DNA of 64,000 nt from Oceanispirochaeta crateris (GTDB lineage Bacteria > Spirochaetota > Spirochaetia > DSM-2461), in contig NZ_CP036150.1 of assembly GCF_008329965.1 (NCBI RefSeq), forward strand, positions 2,418,001-2,482,000, given 5' to 3'. Shown piece by piece: positions 23,406 to 35,005 of the stretch (the stretch's first letter is position 1; every line of letters starts with the position of its first letter). The translations under genes and the position numbers were made by a program. The notes under the pieces were generated by a model. The model made no database searches. It saw only the letters and a list, made by a program, of their open reading frames with translations, and was not told the DNA's origin.

Positions 23406-23900
23406 TTAAATCTTGTCCTTAAAAGTATCCAGCAATATCTGGATTTTCTCTTCAAGGGGGTCCTCTATATTCAGGGTAAGACCATATTCCGGCTCCTCAA
23501 GATCAGCAAACTGACTTCTGAGCATGTCCACCTTAAAATAATGTCCCTTTCTATTGGACATGCGTTTTTCTATGACTTCAAAGTGCCCTTGCAGGTAGAC
23601 CCATTCAATGGGTTCACTGAGTCCCTGGCCGAGGAACTGTCTGTAAGATTCCTTCAACGCAGAACATGAGAACACAGCCGATTTATCCTTAGACTGGTAC
23701 TCGCCTACCTTATCCCGAATCAAATGCAGCCAAGGCCAGCGGTCATCATCATTCAATGGAATCCCAGATGACATTTTCTGAATATTAGCCTCCGGATGAA
23801 AACTATCCGCTTCAAAATACTCAACGCCCAAACCTTCGGCTGTTTTCTCCCCCAGAGTGGTTTTACCACAGCCGCTGACGCCCATAATTATAATGATCAT
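23406..23900 (-). CDS. gntK: Gluconokinase
   Basis: 164 aa, the size of the thermoresistant GntK type. P-loop GVSGCGKTT (7-15), then the conserved ADSFHPEANIQKMSSGIPL and DDRWPWL substrate segments, and CSALKESYR. It phosphorylates D-gluconate to 6-phosphogluconate in the cytoplasm. Its ATG overlaps the stop of the LarA-family gene (ATGA) and GGAGG lies 8 nt upstream, so the two enzymes are co-translated. That pairing suggests the epimerase delivers gluconate to this kinase. Confidence 0.95.
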   Translation of the reverse strand: MIIIIMGVSGCGKTTLGEKTAEGLGVEYFEADSFHPEANIQKMSSGIPLNDDDRWPWLHLIRDKVGEYQSKDKSAVFSCSALKESYRQFLGQGLSEPIEWVYLQGHFEVIEKRMSNRKGHYFKVDMLRSQFADLEEPEYGLTLNIEDPLEEKIQILLDTFKDKI

Positions 23901-25180
23901 ATATGATCCTCCATGAATTTATCTTTGAGAGCCCAGAGTCCCAGGGCAGGGTTTGAAATGTAAAAGATCTCTTCTCCATCGGGCATACTATTCCACCCTT
24001 CCTTCAATGTATGAATATTGTAGAGCTGGGAGTACTCCTTCAAATCACCAAAGGCAAAGCCAGCGTCTTCAACAACGTCTTTTGAAAGACCGCCGGGGCA
24101 ATAGCGAATTTTAAAGCGTCCTTCAGAAGACCCATGAATCAAATGAGCAGCCACAGAGAGATTTTCAGCCACTTCAGGATATTTCTTTACCAGATCAAGG
24201 GTATGATCTGTCCCGTGGTATCCATATTTTCTGATCAAGCCATCCATTTCTTCGCTCTCTCCAAAACAGTGAACACCCGGGGCCAGAACAATCAGCTCTC
24301 CCTCGTCGGCGATGGCCATGCGGGTGCGATAAATACTCTTATTTCCCAACCATGTGCTTCGGAATTCTTCCGGATCCAGATAAACAACAACCTTATGGGG
24401 TGCTTTGTCTAGCAGGACGATATTCAGCTCCTGCGCCAGTGCCGCGGCTTTCTCATAACACTCCTTATCGTCTCCGATATACATACCTTTCATAACAGGA
24501 GCTCCTGCACCATCTGCTGCCACGACTGTTTGAACATACACCAGAGGCAGATCTTTGCAAAATTTATCTGCTCCCAAATTAAACAGTTGGCGTACAGGCG
24601 TATAGGCCCGACCCATGACTTTTTCCATATTAGAAACGGCACCGAGGAAATGACTTTTATCAATGGCTTCTTTCCCTCCCGTTCCAACGAGGATATTCTT
24701 TGTATAATTGGCCATACCCACAACCTCATGTGGAACAACTTGCCCAATGGAGAGGATGAGATCCCAGTCTTCTTCCACTAATATTTTATTGACCTGTACC
24801 GGCCAGTCATAATCCAGACGGCCTCCAGAAAGATTGGACATCTCTTCGCCGCTGATTCTTCCCAGCTCTGTGAGTCCGTTACGCCAGTCATGAGCCTGAA
24901 TGAGCCCAGAGGGCATAGAGCCGAACATCTTCTCAATCTCTTTCTCAGACATAGGGAAATGTGTGCCCAAGGCTGGTAGAACGACCTTTACTTTGTCTCC
25001 CAGAATCTTCCAGGCAATTTCGCAGAGCGTTCCCGCACCGGAATGATACCTGGTAAAATCAGGAGGAATAATCAAAACTTTCTGAATATCAGGAAATGAT
25101 TTCAACAGACTGGTCAGACCTTCAGTCATGATTTTCTGATCAATCACTTCATTCCTGGACTCTCTGGAAAAATACAACAT
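23897..25180 (-). CDS. LarA-family nickel-dependent 2-hydroxyacid racemase/epimerase
   Basis: 427 aa. The family uses a nickel-pincer nucleotide cofactor tethered to a Lys. The landmark residues of lactate racemase LarA (H108, H174, K184, H200) map to H74 (GTHFPM), H151 (VPH), K161 (NYTKN) and H177 (KSHFLG). The 10- and 16-residue spacings of the last three are identical. LarA homologues include a D-gluconate 2-epimerase (established). Co-translation with gluconokinase makes gluconate/mannonate interconversion the best guess here. GGAGGG precedes the ATG. The cofactor makers larB, larC and larE are not in this window and must be elsewhere if the enzyme works. Confidence 0.9.
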   Translation of the reverse strand: MLYFSRESRNEVIDQKIMTEGLTSLLKSFPDIQKVLIIPPDFTRYHSGAGTLCEIAWKILGDKVKVVLPALGTHFPMSEKEIEKMFGSMPSGLIQAHDWRNGLTELGRISGEEMSNLSGGRLDYDWPVQVNKILVEEDWDLILSIGQVVPHEVVGMANYTKNILVGTGGKEAIDKSHFLGAVSNMEKVMGRAYTPVRQLFNLGADKFCKDLPLVYVQTVVAADGAGAPVMKGMYIGDDKECYEKAAALAQELNIVLLDKAPHKVVVYLDPEEFRSTWLGNKSIYRTRMAIADEGELIVLAPGVHCFGESEEMDGLIRKYGYHGTDHTLDLVKKYPEVAENLSVAAHLIHGSSEGRFKIRYCPGGLSKDVVEDAGFAFGDLKEYSQLYNIHTLKEGWNSMPDGEEIFYISNPALGLWALKDKFMEDHI

Positions 25181-25250
25181 AGACTACCCTCCGGGGACAA
25201 AATAAACCCCTGTTTCAATTATTGTACACCAAGAATATCACAGATCAAGT

Positions 25251-25282: not shown

Positions 25283-25379
25283 TCTCCAGTTCCAATGAAA
25301 ACTATTTTGTTTCAAAAGCAATCTTTTTCATCCGGAATGTATTATATTTTCTTTTAGCTTCTATTAAAGGATGATCCAA

Positions 25380-26858
25380 ATGGGTATTGCAATTAAACGA
25401 TTGGATACGACTCTCTACCCCGACCCCAAAAGAGTCATTGCCAGGTTTTATCTTCCCGGAGGCGAAGACCGTGGACGGTATATCATTCAGAAAATTATGA
25501 GCTTGTCAGAGGAAAAGGTACAAGAGTTATTGCAGAGGATTCTTGGAAATTATGCTAATCGCCACAGAAATATCACCAATATTTTTGAAAATCATTTTAA
25601 CAATGTATCTAGACTCCTGGCGGCTATAGAGGATGATCCTGAAACAATCACCCAGGAGAGGAAAAGACTGATTGGTGCTTATTTTACCCATGAATACTCC
25701 ATTGAATCTGCCGCTTTTTTCAATCCTTCCATCATAGAAGATCCTGATCAGAGTCATCTGGAAGAGGGACAAAAACGCCTGATTGTCAGCTTCAGAGCCA
25801 CAGGTGAAGGGCATATTTCATCCATAGTCTTCAGAAGCGTCATCATTGATCAGCAAAATAAGCTCAGTTTTCAAAGAACGAATGATCTTGTGGAGCAGCC
25901 GGAAACCATCCGGCTCACCTTTTTCAACAAACAGCGGTATATTAGTAAACTCGATGAGCTGAATATACACAAAGACATCGTCGATCTGATTATGAAAGGC
26001 TTAGGAGATGAGTTCACCTACAAAGAATTAAACGACAGCATACATAACTGCGTTAAAGACATGAATTTATCTCTTTCTAAAAAGAATGTTATCAAGTCGA
26101 TGATATGGCTGGCAGATGCTCATTATGATACAAAGTTCTCAATGGATACGGCTCTGACAGAACGAGTAATCTTTCCCGCTTCAGAATCGGAGAAAAATGG
26201 TATAGAAGATGCCCGCTTCGTAAAGTTTACAGACGATGATGGCAAAAGCACGTACTATGCCACCTATACGGCTTACAATGGTTTTGCCACCATGTCCAAA
26301 CTTCTAGAGACCAAGGATTTCTACCAGTTTACAACCAGACCCCTCCATGGAAAAAGTGCCAATAGCAAAGGAATGGCCCTGTTCCCCAGAAAGATACGCG
26401 GTCAGTATGCCATGATTTCCAGGATTGACGGATTTTGCAACTATGTCATGTACTCTGACAGCCTTACGACCTGGCAGGATGAGATAAAAATTGAAGAACC
26501 TCAGTCGCCATGGGAGTTTGTTCAAATAGGGAATTGTGGATCTCCCATTGAAACAGAATACGGCTGGCTGCTACTGACTCACGGTGTTGGAGCCATGCGT
26601 GAATACTGCCTCGGCATCAGCCTTCTGGATCTGGACCACCCTGAAAAAGTGATCTGTCAATTGGAAGATCCCATCTTAATCCCCAACCAAACTGAGAGAG
26701 AAGGATATGTACCGAATGTGGTCTACTCCTGCGGCTCCATAATCCACAACAATGATATCATAATCCCCTATGGTCTTTCAGATTCGGCCTCATCATTTGC
26801 GGCTCTGCCCTTGGATCTCATCTTTGAAAAAATGCACCTGGGCAGACACCGTTCTTAA
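25380..26858 (+). CDS. GH130-family glycoside phosphorylase/hydrolase
   Basis: 492 aa from ATG 25380. An in-frame ATG at 25371 abuts the AAAGG ribosome-binding site and is rejected. The family works on beta-mannosides, usually by phosphorolysis to mannose-1-phosphate. GIEDARF (about 273-279) matches the conserved GH130 GxEDPR segment. A long helical N-terminal extension (about 45-110 and 190-250) places it in a long subgroup. No signal peptide, so intracellular. The convergent GT4 fusion gene overlaps its last 4 bp. Together they may build and break an intracellular mannoside. Confidence 0.85.
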   Translation: MGIAIKRLDTTLYPDPKRVIARFYLPGGEDRGRYIIQKIMSLSEEKVQELLQRILGNYANRHRNITNIFENHFNNVSRLLAAIEDDPETITQERKRLIGAYFTHEYSIESAAFFNPSIIEDPDQSHLEEGQKRLIVSFRATGEGHISSIVFRSVIIDQQNKLSFQRTNDLVEQPETIRLTFFNKQRYISKLDELNIHKDIVDLIMKGLGDEFTYKELNDSIHNCVKDMNLSLSKKNVIKSMIWLADAHYDTKFSMDTALTERVIFPASESEKNGIEDARFVKFTDDDGKSTYYATYTAYNGFATMSKLLETKDFYQFTTRPLHGKSANSKGMALFPRKIRGQYAMISRIDGFCNYVMYSDSLTTWQDEIKIEEPQSPWEFVQIGNCGSPIETEYGWLLLTHGVGAMREYCLGISLLDLDHPEKVICQLEDPILIPNQTEREGYVPNVVYSCGSIIHNNDIIIPYGLSDSASSFAALPLDLIFEKMHLGRHRS

Positions 26859-29080
26859 TGATTTTGTTCAAATACTGACATAACAGATATATGTGAAATC
26901 AGATAAGCCAGGGTGCTTTCTGCTCCCTGGTTCCTATTGACCCCATAGGGTTTTAAACCATCGTTACAGCCCTTTGTCTCAAAATCATACAGGGGTATAT
27001 GGAGGTCATTATCACCAAGGAACCACATGAAAGACCTAAACATTTTATCAAGGTATTGGGGATCTTTTTCCACCTTATAGGCTTGTCGGAACATAAGAAC
27101 AACGGCCATGGCGTTAAGGGGTTGTTGGTCAAAATTAGCGGCATCTCCCCCTTTATGATACCATCCATCACTTCCCACGATGGAAAGGTTCCCTTCTGAA
27201 AGAACAATAGAACTCAGAAAGTCTATGGATTCAAAGGCGATGGTCTTCGATTCCTCTCTCCCCGTAATTTCATAGGAACAGAGCAGTGAATAGGGAAGAA
27301 TTCCATTATCATAGCTGATAAGCGGCTCATACCAATGCCAGCCTTCTTCACTGTTGGCCGTGTAATAATCTTCCAGTTTTTGAGTCATCGATCTAAGGTG
27401 ATTCATCATTCCCTCATCTGTTGGAAAACGATGCATCCAATTACTCACACCAATGATGGAGTTTGCCAGCCCCCGGATTGAATTTAAATCAGGAAATTTG
27501 ACCATCCCCTTCTGAAAGAGATCCCGAACCTGCTCAAATAGAACATCATTCGGCGGAAAACGAATCAAGGTTCCCAAGGCCCAGATGGTTCGTCCGAAAG
27601 AGTCCTCAGATCCTATTTCATCCAAATAATTCCTGGAATAGGAGAGAAAATTTCTGAAGCTCCCATCATCATTCTGCATATATTGAATAAAACTCAAATA
27701 ATGAAGCATCAGTCTCAATGATTCTGGATCTTTCATCTGCCTGTATGCCATTGTCGTCATAAGGAGTGCCCTGGCATTGTCGTCCAGACAATATCCATCC
27801 TGGAATTTGGGAACAATATACTTTGCATGCTGCAGAATACCCGTAGAATCTGTCATCCGAATGACATGATCAAGACTGAATTGCGGCATGAGACCCGTAT
27901 TAACGACATTATGATCAATTTCAACGGGGACAGGAATTGGACTTTTTCTGGTTTCATCGAATAACTTTAAATACCTCTGACCAATCATAGGCCAACTCGT
28001 CTTTTTTCCAAATTCGAAGGCTCTGGACTGAAGCTGTTTTAACCGGACAGGGTCTTCTAGTAGAGAATTTAGAATCTCAGCAAGTTGCTCCGAATTACCA
28101 AAATCAAACAGGATTCCCCTGTCATTAGCCAGAAGCTCTTTAGCATGCCAGTATGGAGTCGAAATAACAGCGGTTCCCGAGCTGACAGCATAAGCCAAGG
28201 TACCACTGGTAATTTGTGCTTCGTTTAGATATGGGGTCACATACATATCTGCAGCACTCAGGTACCCCAGTAAATCATCAATGGAAAGAAAGCGATCATC
28301 AAAGAAAACGTTATCTGACAAACCCTGTTGATGCACGAGGAGCTTGAGATAATTGCGGTACTCTTCTCCAGAGGATCTGATAACAGCCGGATGGGTTTTT
28401 CCTAAGATAATATACAGAAGGTCCGGATGTTTTTTGACCACTTCCGGAAGGGCGTTTATCACCGTTTCAATGCCCTTATTCCGACTGAGAAGCCCAAAAG
28501 TGATTAGAGTCTTTCGGTTTTCTACCTTAAATTTCTTCTTATGGTACTCAATTCTGGTAAAGTCAAACTCGGGAACACCATGCTCGATAACATGGATCTT
28601 TTCTTTCTCAACACCATAGACCTCTGTTAGAAAATCTATGGCCAGGCTGTTCATAACAACAATTGCCGAGGCTCTCTTGCCAATTTCTATGATGATATTT
28701 TTTTCGTTGTAGGATGGTTCTTTTAAAACTGTATGAAAAATAACTACCAGTGGAATTTTTAATTTATTAATGAGAGGTAATATATACACTCCACTGTTAC
28801 CGCCGTAAATACCGAATTCATGCTGTAGCAGACATATATCGGCGCCGCTGAAATTTATATACTTTGCGGCTTGGAGGTAATCCTGAAGGTAATCTTGACG
28901 TATCGTACTTTCTACTTCTTCAGGATACGCGTACTCTTTATGATTATCATTCATGGCAATTACAAATGCCTGATGAAGAGCACCATCATACTTTTGCCCC
29001 AATGAGTCGATAACATCTTTAGTAAAAGTTGCTATACCACACTCTCTTGGAGGGAAGTTTCCTACACAGGCAATCTTCAT
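26855..29080 (-). CDS. GT4 glycosyltransferase fused to a C-terminal helical-barrel domain
   Basis: 741 aa. Residues 1-380 form a GT4 transferase (N-terminal GNFPPRECGIATFTKDV, then ITFGLLSRNKGIETVI and TSGTLAYAVSSGTAVIS in the donor site). Residues about 400-741 form a second, helix-rich domain with repeated DNARAL, WALGTLIR, GWHWYEP, YDNGILPYSL and GAESTLAYL segments, resembling an (alpha/alpha)6 barrel. This two-domain type is often found near GH130 genes (recollection). GGAG precedes the ATG. It ends 4 bp inside the convergent GH130 gene. The second domain could act on or bind the glycan; its catalysis is unknown. Confidence 0.85.
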   Translation of the reverse strand: MKIACVGNFPPRECGIATFTKDVIDSLGQKYDGALHQAFVIAMNDNHKEYAYPEEVESTIRQDYLQDYLQAAKYINFSGADICLLQHEFGIYGGNSGVYILPLINKLKIPLVVIFHTVLKEPSYNEKNIIIEIGKRASAIVVMNSLAIDFLTEVYGVEKEKIHVIEHGVPEFDFTRIEYHKKKFKVENRKTLITFGLLSRNKGIETVINALPEVVKKHPDLLYIILGKTHPAVIRSSGEEYRNYLKLLVHQQGLSDNVFFDDRFLSIDDLLGYLSAADMYVTPYLNEAQITSGTLAYAVSSGTAVISTPYWHAKELLANDRGILFDFGNSEQLAEILNSLLEDPVRLKQLQSRAFEFGKKTSWPMIGQRYLKLFDETRKSPIPVPVEIDHNVVNTGLMPQFSLDHVIRMTDSTGILQHAKYIVPKFQDGYCLDDNARALLMTTMAYRQMKDPESLRLMLHYLSFIQYMQNDDGSFRNFLSYSRNYLDEIGSEDSFGRTIWALGTLIRFPPNDVLFEQVRDLFQKGMVKFPDLNSIRGLANSIIGVSNWMHRFPTDEGMMNHLRSMTQKLEDYYTANSEEGWHWYEPLISYDNGILPYSLLCSYEITGREESKTIAFESIDFLSSIVLSEGNLSIVGSDGWYHKGGDAANFDQQPLNAMAVVLMFRQAYKVEKDPQYLDKMFRSFMWFLGDNDLHIPLYDFETKGCNDGLKPYGVNRNQGAESTLAYLISHISVMSVFEQNH

Positions 29081-30114: not shown

Positions 30115-30783
30115 TCAACTCTTAATATGTTCTGTAATCTCTTCCAATAATTTTCCAGTATAATCCAGAGAAACATGAACAGAGCTTTGAAGATCCTGAG
30201 GGAGAAGATCCCTGACCCTAGCCATAGATATCTGTGATAAAAGAATATCGTCATGTTCCTTCAATAATTCAATGATATACTCTACCACAGCGGTATCATG
30301 ACCCTGAACATCCCCTTTCATCAGAGTTTCGAAAGCACCTGGACAAACCTTAATAGGTACAGAGTGATTAAGATCCAATCTTACTCTCATTTCTTCACCC
30401 AGTAGAGCGGCAGGTGTTTTATTGGTAGGATTTGTCATTAAAACAACAGGATTGTTAGAATGACTGAGAACAGAATCAAACATCTTTTCATCAATCCGAA
30501 CAATAGGAATGGAACTGTTCTTTTGAACACTCACAACAGATGGGGAAAGGGAACTACAGCTGACAATGATAGCTTTAGCCTCCCCCTTGATACAACGGTC
30601 AACAAGAGCCTGAAGCCAGGGAACTGTCAATTCAGGAGTGTTTCCATCTTTCATCATCCTGAAAAGAACGGCCTCATCAAGCATATGAAAAAAATCATAA
30701 TCTTGATTGTAAGGTTCCAATGCAGATTGCACTGGCCCAAGGACAAGCGGTGTCGTATGTATCAATGCTATTCTATTCTTCAT
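30115..30783 (-). CDS. Asp/Glu racemase-superfamily enzyme with one catalytic Cys
   Basis: 222 aa. Fold and length match the Asp/Glu/hydantoin racemase superfamily. The first catalytic Cys is present (C76 in IVSCSSLSP). The second position, usually Cys in a (L/G)C motif, reads LLSQISMARV, so Gln replaces Cys near residue 184. One-Cys members are known as decarboxylases or isomerases rather than true racemases. It lies downstream of the split transketolase genes but behind a terminator, so it is expressed by read-through or from its own promoter (TTGCCC and TAGAAT, 16 nt apart, upstream). Substrate unknown. Confidence 0.82.
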   Translation of the reverse strand: MKNRIALIHTTPLVLGPVQSALEPYNQDYDFFHMLDEAVLFRMMKDGNTPELTVPWLQALVDRCIKGEAKAIIVSCSSLSPSVVSVQKNSSIPIVRIDEKMFDSVLSHSNNPVVLMTNPTNKTPAALLGEEMRVRLDLNHSVPIKVCPGAFETLMKGDVQGHDTAVVEYIIELLKEHDDILLSQISMARVRDLLPQDLQSSVHVSLDYTGKLLEEITEHIKS

Positions 30784-30851
30784 AACCAGATTTTCTCCAA
30801 AGACTTATTCTACCTCAGCAAGGCTAAAGGGCAATTCAAAACGAGATCTTA

Positions 30852-30901
30852 AAAAATCAGACGGAGCTAACCGCAAAGGAGGAAAATGATAGCTCCGTCT
30901 G
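30852..30901 (-). terminator. Terminator after the split transketolase genes
   Basis: 12-bp inverted repeat TAGCTCCGTCTG (30890-30901) / CAGACGGAGCTA (30858-30869), with TTTTTT directly after it on the minus strand. The 20-nt loop contains a GGAGG. It separates the transketolase unit from the racemase-family gene. Confidence 0.8.
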
Positions 30902-30912
30902 TAAAAACAAAT

Positions 30913-31848
30913 CTATTGTGAAGTTTTTCCAACAAGTGCTTCAGCTTTAGCTACAATAGCCGTTACAGAAATACCATATTTATCCAACAAATCCACGTAA
31001 GGACCCGATTCAGTAAAACAATCATCAATGCCGACAAAATCCATGGGAACGGGATTAGATTTGACGAGGACTTCCGATACAGCACTTCCAAGTCCACCAT
31101 GAATGGAATGCTCCTCAACAGTCAGAAAACATCCTGTTTTTTTAGCTGAAGTTAGAATAGCATCGATATCCAGAGGTTTGAGGCTTCCCAAATCTAAGAC
31201 ATCTGCTGCAATCCCTTTTTCAGCTAGCAATCCAGCTGCCTCAAGGACCATTGGAATAGTGATACCACAAGCTCCAATAGTCACATTCTTGCCCTCAGCC
31301 AGGATTTCCGCTTTACCGATCATCAATGGTTTTTTATTCAGTACAGGACTAGGGTTCCGGCACATTCTAATGTATACAGGACCATTGATATTTAAAGCTT
31401 GTTCCAATGCAGAAGTAACATCATCTGCATGAGCTGGTACTAAAACAGTCATATTGGGAAAGGCTCTCATAATAGCAAGATCCGTGATGGACTGGTGACT
31501 AGCACCATCAAAAGAGTCGGAAAGTCCTGAGTAACCACCTGCTATGATCACATTCAGATTATTGTAGCAAACTACATTTCTGATTTGATCAGTGGCTTTG
31601 AGAGCCAGGAAAATAGCGAAAGCACTAACTACAGGACGATACCCACATGTGGCCATACCAGCAGCAATATCCACCATATTTGCTTCAGCTACTCCTACAT
31701 TGAAAAATCTATCAGGATAGGCTTTTCCAAAAAGCCCGCTACGAGTGCTGGAAGAAACGTCTGCATCCAGAACCATCAATTTATCATTTGATTTTCCAAT
31801 CTCGACTAAAGCAGCGCCGAAGGCATCTCTCATTCCTTTGGTTTCCAT
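30913..31848 (-). CDS. Split transketolase, C-terminal (pyrimidine-binding) subunit
   Basis: 311 aa. Corresponds to the second half of transketolase: Pyr domain with the conserved VGVAEANMVDIAAGMA (the catalytic-type Glu) and SFDGASHQSITDLAIMRAFP, and a C-terminal domain with VEEHSIHGGLG. It pairs with the N-terminal subunit encoded just upstream (TAATG overlap) to form one TPP enzyme. Split transketolases are often devoted to a special sugar phosphate rather than the pentose cycle. It is the last gene of the leftward operon before the terminator. Confidence 0.93.
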   Translation of the reverse strand: METKGMRDAFGAALVEIGKSNDKLMVLDADVSSSTRSGLFGKAYPDRFFNVGVAEANMVDIAAGMATCGYRPVVSAFAIFLALKATDQIRNVVCYNNLNVIIAGGYSGLSDSFDGASHQSITDLAIMRAFPNMTVLVPAHADDVTSALEQALNINGPVYIRMCRNPSPVLNKKPLMIGKAEILAEGKNVTIGACGITIPMVLEAAGLLAEKGIAADVLDLGSLKPLDIDAILTSAKKTGCFLTVEEHSIHGGLGSAVSEVLVKSNPVPMDFVGIDDCFTESGPYVDLLDKYGISVTAIVAKAEALVGKTSQ

Positions 31849-32699
31849 TATTCATCCTCCCATTTACTTAAGACAGTTTTTAACTGCGGAAGTGCTTTTT
31901 TAAGATGTTCATCACCAACAGGTGAACCATGCCAGATATGCGTATCCTCAGTAAAATCAACACCCTTTCCTTTCGTCGTATCGTAAATAATCACAGAAGG
32001 TCCTGAGATCTGTGTATTAAGCCACTTAAAGGACTTTTCAATTTCATCAATATCATGCCCATTAAAGGATTGGTTTGCAACATTCCAGTTAAAGGCTTTA
32101 AATTTATCAACGAGAGGATCAAGAGGCATAATATCCTTTGAATGTCCATCTAACTGTACCTTGTTGTAATCAACAAGTAGAACTAAGTCTTTGGGTGCAA
32201 ATTTTCCAGCAGCCATAATAGCTTCCCAAGACTGTCCTTCATTCAAGCAACCTTCCCCTACAATCACAAAGGTTTTAAAGGGATGTTCATTACGGGCGGC
32301 CATCAAACTCATGCCTAAACCAACAGAAAGCCCGTGTCCCAGGGCTCCTGTAGACATTTCAACTCCAGAAGTCTTATTCATACAAGGATGTCCCTGAAGT
32401 GAACTGTTTAGATCTCTGAAAGAACTTAAAGTTCCTTTTTTTAGATATCCCTTTTCCTCTAGAATTCGGTACAACATGGGGGAAGCATGCCCCTTGCTGA
32501 GAATCAGTCTATCTCGATCGGACCAGTCAGGCTGCTCCGGCCTGATATTCATCTGTTTGAAATACAGATATGTTAGAATCTCAGCAACAGAAGAAGATCC
32601 TCCCCAATGTCCTGTGCCTTTAGAATGCAGAGTTTCAATGACATCAATTCTGAACTGCTGAGCAAGAGCCTGTAATTGTTTATTCGTATGTGTCTTCAT
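31848..32699 (-). CDS. Split transketolase, N-terminal (TPP-binding) subunit
   Basis: 283 aa. PP domain: DRLILSKGHASPMLY, GALGHGLSVGLGMSL and the TPP/Mg motif GEGCLNEGQSWEA ending at VDYNKVQLDG. GHWGGSSSVAEIL at the N-terminus is typical of this half. AAGGAA lies before the ATG. One-base overlap with the C-terminal subunit gene gives equal synthesis. In this island it is expected to cleave or transfer a two-carbon unit from the ketose or keto acid made by the upstream enzymes. Confidence 0.93.
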   Translation of the reverse strand: MKTHTNKQLQALAQQFRIDVIETLHSKGTGHWGGSSSVAEILTYLYFKQMNIRPEQPDWSDRDRLILSKGHASPMLYRILEEKGYLKKGTLSSFRDLNSSLQGHPCMNKTSGVEMSTGALGHGLSVGLGMSLMAARNEHPFKTFVIVGEGCLNEGQSWEAIMAAGKFAPKDLVLLVDYNKVQLDGHSKDIMPLDPLVDKFKAFNWNVANQSFNGHDIDEIEKSFKWLNTQISGPSVIIYDTTKGKGVDFTEDTHIWHGSPVGDEHLKKALPQLKTVLSKWEDE

Positions 32700-32725
32700 A
32701 ATGTGTTCCTTATTCTTCCACCAGT

Positions 32726-33115
32726 TCAGGACCAGGGAATTTTCTTTCTGTATACCAGGTGAATCCAGTTTCCTTCAGGGTCCTGAAAAAATCGGACTTT
32801 CCCCTCCTGAAAGATGGTAAAACCATCTTCCTTGAAAAGTACTCCTTTGCTTTCCAAATCTTTTACTGCTTTGTCATAATCATCAATTGTTAAGCAAAGA
32901 TGCTGAGCTTTCCGGACCTGATCTTCAGAATGTTTAAATCCCTCAGGCATGGAAAAAAACTCAAGAATATACCCTCCTTGATCTCTGACAAAAACTGGAG
33001 TGTTCTCCTCGGGTGGAATGAAAAGCTGATTAAAACCAAGCACATCCTGATACCATTGAGCTAACTCTAATGGATTTCGGGACATTATACCGATGTGTTC
33101 TATACAGTATTTCAT
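32726..33115 (-). CDS. VOC-superfamily (glyoxalase-like) metalloprotein
   Basis: 129 aa, one pair of beta-alpha-beta-beta-beta modules. Likely metal ligands by position are H7 (EHIGI), E52 (ILEFF), H72 (QHLCL) and H119 (NWIHLVYR). The last is usually Glu in this superfamily. It could be an epimerase, isomerase or dioxygenase-like enzyme; function cannot be assigned. Its ATG overlaps the stop of the epimerase gene (ATGA), so it belongs to the same pathway. Confidence 0.8.
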   Translation of the reverse strand: MKYCIEHIGIMSRNPLELAQWYQDVLGFNQLFIPPEENTPVFVRDQGGYILEFFSMPEGFKHSEDQVRKAQHLCLTIDDYDKAVKDLESKGVLFKEDGFTIFQEGKVRFFQDPEGNWIHLVYRKKIPWS

Positions 33116-33918
33116 ATGAATTTCCTTATTGTATTAATTGCTTCTAATGCTGCCTGGTCTGGTTCAGGAAAGGGTAGAATCTCAAGAGAAATGTAACCAT
33201 TGTATCCAGAGGCCTTCAAAGCGCTAATTATACTCTGGAAATCCAGATGTCCTCGTCCTGGTGCCCAGCGGTTTGAATCGGCAAAATGAACATATGAAAC
33301 CAGATCAGCATATTTCCAGAAACAGCCTTCGATTGATGGATCTTCAATATTCATATGAAAGACATCGGGCATCATCTTCAGACGAGGATGATTTAAACTT
33401 CTGATAATTTCTGCAGTCTGATAACAATTGTTCAAAAAATTGATTTCATATCTATTAACCGGTTCAAGAGCAATTGTAACACCCAGCTCATCAGATCGTT
33501 TTAATGCCTTTTCCATAGATTCTCGAAAGTAATCAATTGATGGCTCGCCTTCAGTGAGAACCCCTCTTAGGCGACCAATATTAATCAGACTACCCAATTC
33601 TGCTGCCACCTCCATAAGGCCAAAAAAATCAGTTAGAGCCTTTTCTCTTTTATTCTTATCCTGATGAGTAAAATTCACACCTGTATCAGCAAAGATTTGC
33701 CCTGTTGAAACCATGGGTATTTCTAGACCGGTTTCTTTCATAATTTTCTTAACTTTAGGAAGATCAACTTGTTTTTTATTCAAAAGAGCCAGTTCAACTC
33801 CGTCATAACCAAGCATTGCTGCTTTCATCATGCTGTTTTCAAGTTTATCCCGGAATACAACAAAAGCAGACATTAATGCATTTTCAGGAGCAACTGCGAG
33901 TGCCAGTTTTATAGACAT
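33112..33918 (-). CDS. Sugar epimerase, TIM-barrel (IolO-like)
   Basis: 268 aa xylose-isomerase-like TIM barrel. Metal and catalytic residues are visible in IALEPVNRYE, MMPDVFHMN, VHFADSNRWAPGRGHLDF and ISLEILPF. The ADSNRWAPGxGHxDF block and the EPxNRYE block strongly recall 5-keto-L-gluconate epimerase (IolO) of Thermotoga, from memory. An epimerase of a keto sugar acid is the best guess. GGGAG precedes the ATG. Second gene of the leftward operon, 11 nt after the PdxA-like gene and overlapping the VOC gene. Confidence 0.88.
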   Translation of the reverse strand: MSIKLALAVAPENALMSAFVVFRDKLENSMMKAAMLGYDGVELALLNKKQVDLPKVKKIMKETGLEIPMVSTGQIFADTGVNFTHQDKNKREKALTDFFGLMEVAAELGSLINIGRLRGVLTEGEPSIDYFRESMEKALKRSDELGVTIALEPVNRYEINFLNNCYQTAEIIRSLNHPRLKMMPDVFHMNIEDPSIEGCFWKYADLVSYVHFADSNRWAPGRGHLDFQSIISALKASGYNGYISLEILPFPEPDQAALEAINTIRKFI

Positions 33919-33929
33919 ATTCAGCTCCC

Positions 33930-34910
33930 TTACTTTAGAGATCCCAGAACAACTTTCAGTGCCTGAATTAATGCAGTAGGCTTGGCAACGCCCTTTCCTG
34001 CTATATCAAAGGCAGTCCCATGAGCACATGTAGCAATGGCAACTGGCATTCCTCCATGAATGGTGACTCCTTTATCAAAACCCAAAAGTTTGGTAGCAAT
34101 TTGTCCTTGATCGTGATACATGGACACAATAGCATCGTATTCACCATTTTTGACTTTTAAAAAAATTGTATCTGCGGGAAATGGACCTGAGGCATCAATT
34201 CCAGCCTCTCGAGCAGCTTTAACAGCAGGTTCGATCTCATCACCTTCTTCTGTTCCAAAAAGTCCCTTTTCTCCCCCATGAGGATTCAAAGCAGCAACAG
34301 CAATCCTTCTTCTTTTTACAGAGAACCTCTTAAGTTCTTCATTGAGAAAAGTTATGGAATCCAGAATTCTTTCTTTTTTAACATAGAGTGGAATATCTTT
34401 TACTGCAATGTGGCTAGACACACGAACTGTCCACATAGGATCAAGAAAATTTATCTCTCCCGTTATATCGGGACGGTTAAAATGATCTTTGAACATATCA
34501 AGTTCAGAAGGAAAAGGACATCCTCCCTTCTTCATGGCTTCTTTATTAAAAGGCGCAAATACAAATCCTTGAATCAATTTAGAATCGATCAATGACATTA
34601 TTTTTTTCAAAGATCGATACACACAGGCTCCTGACTTGGCAGAGACCTCTCCATAAGGGATCATTTCTCCATTCTCTACAGGAATATTCAAAAACATTAG
34701 ATCAGCTTCAGAATTTTTAATCTGATCTTCTGTTATATCCTGAATATTCATTTTGACATCACACACTTTGAGTGCTCTATCAAAACTAGGACGATCTCCC
34801 ACAAGGATTAGCGAAACAGGTCCCCGATTTTTGTATTCGTTTATACAGCGGACTGTTATTTCAGGTCCTATCCCGGCTGGATCTCCTATCATGAAAGCTA
34901 TTTTTTGCAT
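33930..34910 (-). CDS. PdxA-family dehydrogenase with altered substrate motif
   Basis: 326 aa from ATG 34910, with AGGAG 8 nt upstream; an upstream in-frame start at 34979 would lie in the promoter. The fold is that of 4-hydroxythreonine-4-phosphate dehydrogenase: MIGDPAGIGPEI, and metal ligands VSSHIAVKDI, NPHGGEKGLFG and MYHDQGQ are all present. The substrate-side GHTE motif of true PdxA is replaced by FPSELDMF, so the substrate probably differs. PdxA relatives oxidise phospho-tetronates or diol acids. No DUF1537 tetronate kinase lies nearby. First gene of the leftward operon. Confidence 0.88.
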   Translation of the reverse strand: MQKIAFMIGDPAGIGPEITVRCINEYKNRGPVSLILVGDRPSFDRALKVCDVKMNIQDITEDQIKNSEADLMFLNIPVENGEMIPYGEVSAKSGACVYRSLKKIMSLIDSKLIQGFVFAPFNKEAMKKGGCPFPSELDMFKDHFNRPDITGEINFLDPMWTVRVSSHIAVKDIPLYVKKERILDSITFLNEELKRFSVKRRRIAVAALNPHGGEKGLFGTEEGDEIEPAVKAAREAGIDASGPFPADTIFLKVKNGEYDAIVSMYHDQGQIATKLLGFDKGVTIHGGMPVAIATCAHGTAFDIAGKGVAKPTALIQALKVVLGSLK

Positions 34911-34977
34911 GCAGTTTACTCCTGGACTATATAGAGGGAAACAAAAGCCCTCTGCAATTGGTTTATTTATATTGAAC

Positions 34978-35005
34978 ATTGTATACCATCATTTGGAGCT
35001 GTCAA
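34978..35005 (-). promoter_or_regulatory. Leftward island promoter with overlapping operator
   Basis: Minus strand TTGACA (35005-35000), 16-nt spacer, TACAAT (34983-34978). The palindromic operator ATTGTATACCAT (34978-34989) covers the -10, so a bound repressor would block RNA polymerase. The same 12-mer is in the opposite promoter. The rest of 35006-35141 is AT-rich and holds no gene. Confidence 0.7.

Follow-up and report, generated by a model that had tools for sequence, protein, structure and literature searches.

That homologues of the lactate racemase LarA can act on sugar acids is known from groups 19 and 20 of the family, which epimerise D-mannonate and D-gluconate and need the nickel cofactor NPN (PMC7583248). 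The structure 4NAR is that of GntE2 of Thermotoga maritima, a group 20 enzyme and D-gluconate 2-epimerase (PMC7583248). Group 18 was placed with groups 19 and 20 by their common features, and a hexonate was hypothesised as its substrate (Desguin 2020; PMC7583248). The idea of a pathway from mannonate through gluconate to 6-phosphogluconate has likewise been put forward before, for T. maritima (Rodionova 2012, cited in PMC6978723), and the epimerase has been demonstrated in vitro (PMC7583248). A route described in Lactobacillus suebicus also links uronate breakdown with 6-phosphogluconate and probably employs a kinase of GntK type, but it differs in the order of its steps, the kinase acting first (PMC6978723).

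Here, we have analysed a window of 64,000 nucleotides from Oceanispirochaeta crateris in which a group 18 gene, larAH18, overlaps a gluconokinase gene, gntK (Table 1). Our best overall explanation, which we hold with modest confidence, is that the two genes form an operon for a C2 epimerase and a kinase, and that the NPN of the epimerase comes from elsewhere.

Table 1. Features of the larAH18-gntK locus, in window positions
Feature	Position	Strand	Basis
larAH18, 427 aa, ATG start, putative NPN-dependent hexonate 2-epimerase	23897-25180	(-)	ORF call, profiles and model
gntK, 164 aa, GntK/IdnK-type gluconokinase	23406-23900	(-)	TIGR01313
ATGA, four bases shared by the end of larAH18 (stop) and the start codon of gntK	23897-23900	(-)	
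Ribosome-binding site of larAH18, GGAGG, 7 bases before ATG	25188-25192	(-)	
Ribosome-binding site of gntK, GGAGG, 7 bases before ATG, inside the end of larAH18	23908-23912	(-)	
Codons of D41 and R44 (LarA D72, catalytic; R75, NPN phosphate)	25049-25060	(-)	
Codon of H74 (LarA H108, catalytic)	24959-24961	(-)	
Codon of H151 (LarA H174, catalytic)	24728-24730	(-)	
Codon of K161 (LarA K184, covalent NPN link)	24698-24700	(-)	
Codon of H177 (LarA H200, nickel ligand)	24650-24652	(-)	
Codon of K281 (LarA K298, catalytic)	24338-24340	(-)	
H349-GSSEG-R355, group-18-specific motif, substrate side of pocket	24116-24136	(-)	Alignment

Family identity and active site of LarAH18

The LarAH18 protein matched Pfam Lar_N (E 4e-13) and, over its full length (residues 11-417 on positions 3-410 of the 411 in the model), the NCBIfam model NF052594, 'nickel-dependent putative hexonate epimerase' (NPN_18_hexonate), with 622.1 bits (E 3.5e-187) against an equivalog cut-off of 500. 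The equivalog model of LarA lactate racemase gave only 27 bits (cut-off 460). In its AlphaFold2 model (pLDDT 94.8) the predicted fold is closest to 4NAR, with Z 42.1 over 393 residues, followed by lactate and malate racemases (9eia, Z 30.6; 5huq, Z 29.1). The first-pass annotation of the window had called the gene a LarA homologue and pointed out that such homologues include a gluconate 2-epimerase; the profile matches and the LarA-family fold bear out the first statement, and the NF052594 score places the protein in the putative hexonate-epimerase subgroup. The protein is almost certainly a member of group 18. It is like the group in score, length and all residues, whereas the tandem gntK of the window is unusual for it.

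The annotation had also matched H74, H151, K161 and H177 to LarA. These positions hold, as does the spacing of 10 and 16 residues from H151 to K161 to H177, which is that of H174, K184 and H200 in LarA, and the remaining LarA residues, D72, R75 and K298, have their counterparts in D41, R44 and K281. With LarA (5HUQ) the protein shares the fold and the cofactor and catalytic residues, but identity is 14% and the substrate loop reads EV where LarA has FF. With GntE2 it shares the fold, the D/R/H/H/K/H/K set, a glutamate after the second catalytic histidine and a tryptophan in helix 11, while the two are about 25% identical and LarAH18 differs on the substrate side, at V153, N280, R287, H349, S351 and R355. 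Nearly invariant in LarAH18 and absent from GntE2 are R287, H349, G350-S351 and R355, which the alignment places at or near substrate positions; H349 is kept in 128 of 128 sequences, S351 in 126 and R355 in 125. GntE2 has N348 and no arginine matching R355. The loop at the tethering lysine is group-specific, N158 and N162 being nearly or fully invariant where GntE2 has G and I.

Gene neighbourhoods of larAH18

We compared 128 loci, with genes taken as mechanical ORFs and clustered by BLAST. Besides the window, 80 loci came from named genomes and 47 from genomes of its phylum, two of the 47 (L171, L172) being under the NF052594 cut-off. A 6-phosphogluconate dehydrogenase gene (gnd; the cluster representative scores 780 bits against TIGR00873) lies within three genes of larAH18 in 72 of the 128, and in 48 a PfkB-family kinase gene of the same strand immediately precedes larAH18. 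That gnd may follow larAH18, precede it or diverge from it argues for a functional link. Nearby in some loci are a uronate isomerase gene, a recurring gene that we take to be UxaE-like and that matched no NCBIfam model, and an SDR annotated as D-mannonate oxidoreductase, whose wide cluster could bring together more than one function. In 49 of the 128 loci Gnd and PfkB are both missing from a span of four genes around larAH18, so group 18 may not be uniform in its substrate.

The pairing with gntK, which the first-pass annotation had wished to see surveyed in other genomes, turned out to be rare: gntK is the immediate partner in two of the 128 loci, the window and that of a close relative, Spirochaeta sp. 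UBA5339, and a third GntK is encoded 3 kb from larAH18 in L141. The nearest other relatives (L007, L150) carry three upstream genes that are TRAP transporter-like by size and order only.

Two further neighbours recur. PdxB (4-phosphoerythronate dehydrogenase) is encoded directly after larAH18 in 28 loci (L011, L018 and 26 more, many of them Bacteroidales), often overlapping it or a few bases off, and in most cases gnd comes next. A HAD-like protein that matched no NCBIfam model is encoded directly upstream, often overlapping, in 12 loci (L008:1798-2733 and 11 more), which are mostly beside gnd and have no obvious kinase.

Predicted pathway and order of steps

Co-translation of larAH18 and gntK, suggested earlier from their overlap, is supported. 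The partner kinase matched the gluconokinase model TIGR01313 with 178.7 bits (cut-off 113.75, NCBIfam) and has the P-loop GVSGCGKTT. We propose that LarAH18 would invert C2 of a sugar acid, the most likely reaction being the conversion of D-mannonate into D-gluconate. A hydride would pass for a time to an organo-nickel NPN cofactor that K161 tethers and that R44 and H177 hold in place, while H74 and H151 would serve as acid and base. GntK would then convert gluconate to 6-phosphogluconate, which an unlinked Gnd would oxidise into the pentose phosphate pathway.

That the substrate lies at the level of mannonate and gluconate, free or phosphorylated, is probable in our judgement. The fold, the E152-V153/W277 motif and the Gnd and kinase neighbours together suggest interconversion of D-mannonate and D-gluconate. 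Where gluconate is the product, the substrate, being its C2 epimer, is mannonate. A sugar-acid gene context with gluconokinase, as found here, was described for GntE2 (PMC6978723, citing Rodionova 2012).

The O. crateris genome encodes one Gnd over cut-off, not linked to larAH18, and two copies of mannonate dehydratase (UxuA); UxuA is over cut-off in 24 of the 47 genomes tested. One of the uxuA copies lies three genes upstream of the gene for a member of the polyol-dehydrogenase family, whose match to fructuronate reductase is weak (134 bits against a cut-off of 603). The first-pass annotation had proposed a short route into 6-phosphogluconate that skips the dehydratase. The route itself gains from the frequent proximity of gnd; the skipping does not stand, since with two uxuA copies the larAH18-gntK pair would add a second exit from mannonate and not replace the dehydratase.

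The Gnd and kinase neighbours support this route, or the same route with the kinase first. GntK might phosphorylate mannonate instead of gluconate, and if it or PfkB did so, LarAH18 would be the missing 6-phosphomannonate 2-epimerase yielding 6-phosphogluconate, the compound used by the Gnd that is encoded near larAH18 in 72 of the loci. Both activities were measured in extracts of L. suebicus, where the epimerase gene was not assigned, and the mannonate kinase, with an estimated KM of 0.4 mM, was attributed by the authors to a GntK homologue (PMC6978723). R287, H349, G350-S351 and R355 of LarAH18 could hold the phosphate, an argument drawn from the alignment. The L. suebicus activities that want an epimerase gene and the near-invariance of H349, S351 and R355 make this order of steps a serious rival. 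On the other side, some loci join larAH18 to gnd without an obvious kinase, and we know of no LarA homologue that acts on a phosphorylated sugar acid; a literature search for 6-phosphomannonate epimerase genes returned nothing beyond the papers cited here. We regard phosphorylation before epimerisation as rather unlikely, and prefer epimerisation of the free acid.

Cofactor genes and conservation of the cofactor site

T. maritima has LarB, LarC and LarE, whereas profile searches found none of them in O. crateris, with the T. maritima proteins recovered as controls. The genome, assembled into one contig, measures 4.01 Mb and is 95.85% complete. LarC had no match, LarE at best 36 bits (cut-off 150) and LarB at best 40 bits (cut-off 175), and the searches across the phylum gave the same three absences. 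Divergent forms of LarE and LarB were considered for these sub-threshold matches and rejected, as their sequences resemble PurE and two proteins of TtcA type. We are highly confident that the known LarB, LarC and LarE are absent.

This absence is widespread in the group. Among 393 Spirochaetota genomes, in which LarB, LarC and LarE track each other closely (LarE occurs in 106 of the 112 genomes with LarB), LarAH18 is over cut-off in 46, of which 14 have all three larBCE genes, 4 have some and 28 have none. Assembly gaps are ruled out as a general cause, because these 28 genomes are 92-100% complete and larBCE co-occur; the partial sets (G311, G344, G044, G354) may reflect fragmentation or partial loss. 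LarB and LarC were searched in 50 further LarAH18 genomes of unreported completeness, some few of them perhaps already counted in the Spirochaetota set: 13 had LarC, 11 had LarB (all within the 13) and 37 had neither. On a quick tree the LarC status of LarAH18 changes at least 9 (supported branches) and up to 17 times, a change being LarC loss or LarAH18 transfer alike, and 28 Bacteroidales sequences form a single LarC-less clade.

The cofactor site is nevertheless kept. Across an alignment of 98 LarAH18 sequences, 31 of them LarC-positive and 67 LarC-negative, none of the seven positions for cofactor binding and catalysis varies. The LarC-negative sequences have a mean pairwise identity of about 57% (sampled), and 52 of 427 columns are invariant. 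The first-pass annotation had staked its reading on larBCE being found in the genome, and they were not; as the absence is shared by most LarAH18 genomes and the residues are kept, the enzyme is not refuted, and the source of the cofactor becomes the question. Without known NPN synthesis a functional holo-enzyme is not assured in O. crateris. Conservation in the 67 LarC-less sequences argues for an active enzyme, and we tentatively put the chance that LarAH18 is active, with NPN from outside or made by an undiscovered route, at a little below even. NPN, or a relative of it, might be scavenged from neighbouring cells or made by a pathway other than LarB-LarE-LarC.

A decaying or non-functional acquisition, inactive for want of cofactor, would also account for a genome without LarBCE. 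The frame is intact, the ribosome-binding sites are good and the kinase gene is coupled; all residues are kept in the 28 sequences of the LarC-less Bacteroidales clade, and the supported changes of LarC status occurred without residue loss. We consider decay highly improbable.

LarAH18 could instead use another cofactor at the same residues, or catalyse a reaction other than epimerisation. In Spirochaetota the presence of LarAH18 is independent of LarC (odds ratio 1.4, Fisher p 0.31), whereas genomes with only other LarA homologues, detected via the group-18 profile only, are associated with LarC (odds ratio 5.3, Fisher p 6e-9), both tests ignoring relatedness. The group-specific N158 and N162 at the tethering lysine point the same way. 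Yet the lysine, the histidine, the arginine and both catalytic histidines are the same in LarC-positive and LarC-negative genomes, near relatives occur in LarC-positive genomes, and the related groups 19 and 20 need NPN (PMC7583248). Given the conserved residues, a different cofactor or reaction is unlikely, and NPN remains our preferred cofactor.

Beside larAH18 in LarC-less genomes we saw no conserved gene for cofactor supply, PdxB and the HAD-like protein having no obvious link to it. An association of LarC absence with Gnd adjacency was also considered (40 of 67 against 10 of 31 in raw counts) and rejected, as independent pairs give it no support.

Earlier work has stressed genomes with larBCE but without larA (PMC11796402). 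The reverse case, a larA homologue whose cofactor residues are intact in a genome that has no larBCE, is common in group 18, and our literature search found no paper discussing LarA without LarBCE. It is conceivable, with a likelihood just short of one half, that an NPN-needing subfamily has been kept working in many bacteria, among them rumen Bacteroidales and spirochaetes, that lack the known NPN pathway. If so, either the cofactor is exchanged between cells or there is an undiscovered route to NPN, and the larBCE-less LarAH18 makes this choice testable. As for the substrate, group 18 carries the name of putative hexonate epimerase, and the genes found beside larAH18 in different phyla allow a direct test of a sugar acid.

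Other genes in the genome and the window

A second LarA homologue of 457 aa (L001:1480-2853, at 3671 kb) is encoded in the same LarBCE-less genome. It scores 236 bits against the LarA equivalog cut-off of 460 and has the LarA motif spacing. An iron-type alcohol dehydrogenase-like ORF flanks it on one side and a GntR-like regulator on the other, and transporter-like genes lie upstream.

Divergent from larAH18 in the window is a gene for a GH130-family phosphorylase-like protein (25371-26858, (+); Pfam), and beyond it one for a 741-aa protein (26855-29080, (-)). This protein has a glycosyltransferase at its N terminus, and its final ~390 residues matched no Pfam family. Further on, a run of genes at 30115-34979 (-) encodes an Asp/Glu racemase family protein, a split transketolase, a glyoxalase family protein, an IolO-like epimerase (score under the NCBIfam cut-off) and a PdxA-like dehydrogenase, and looks like another sugar-acid catabolic operon.
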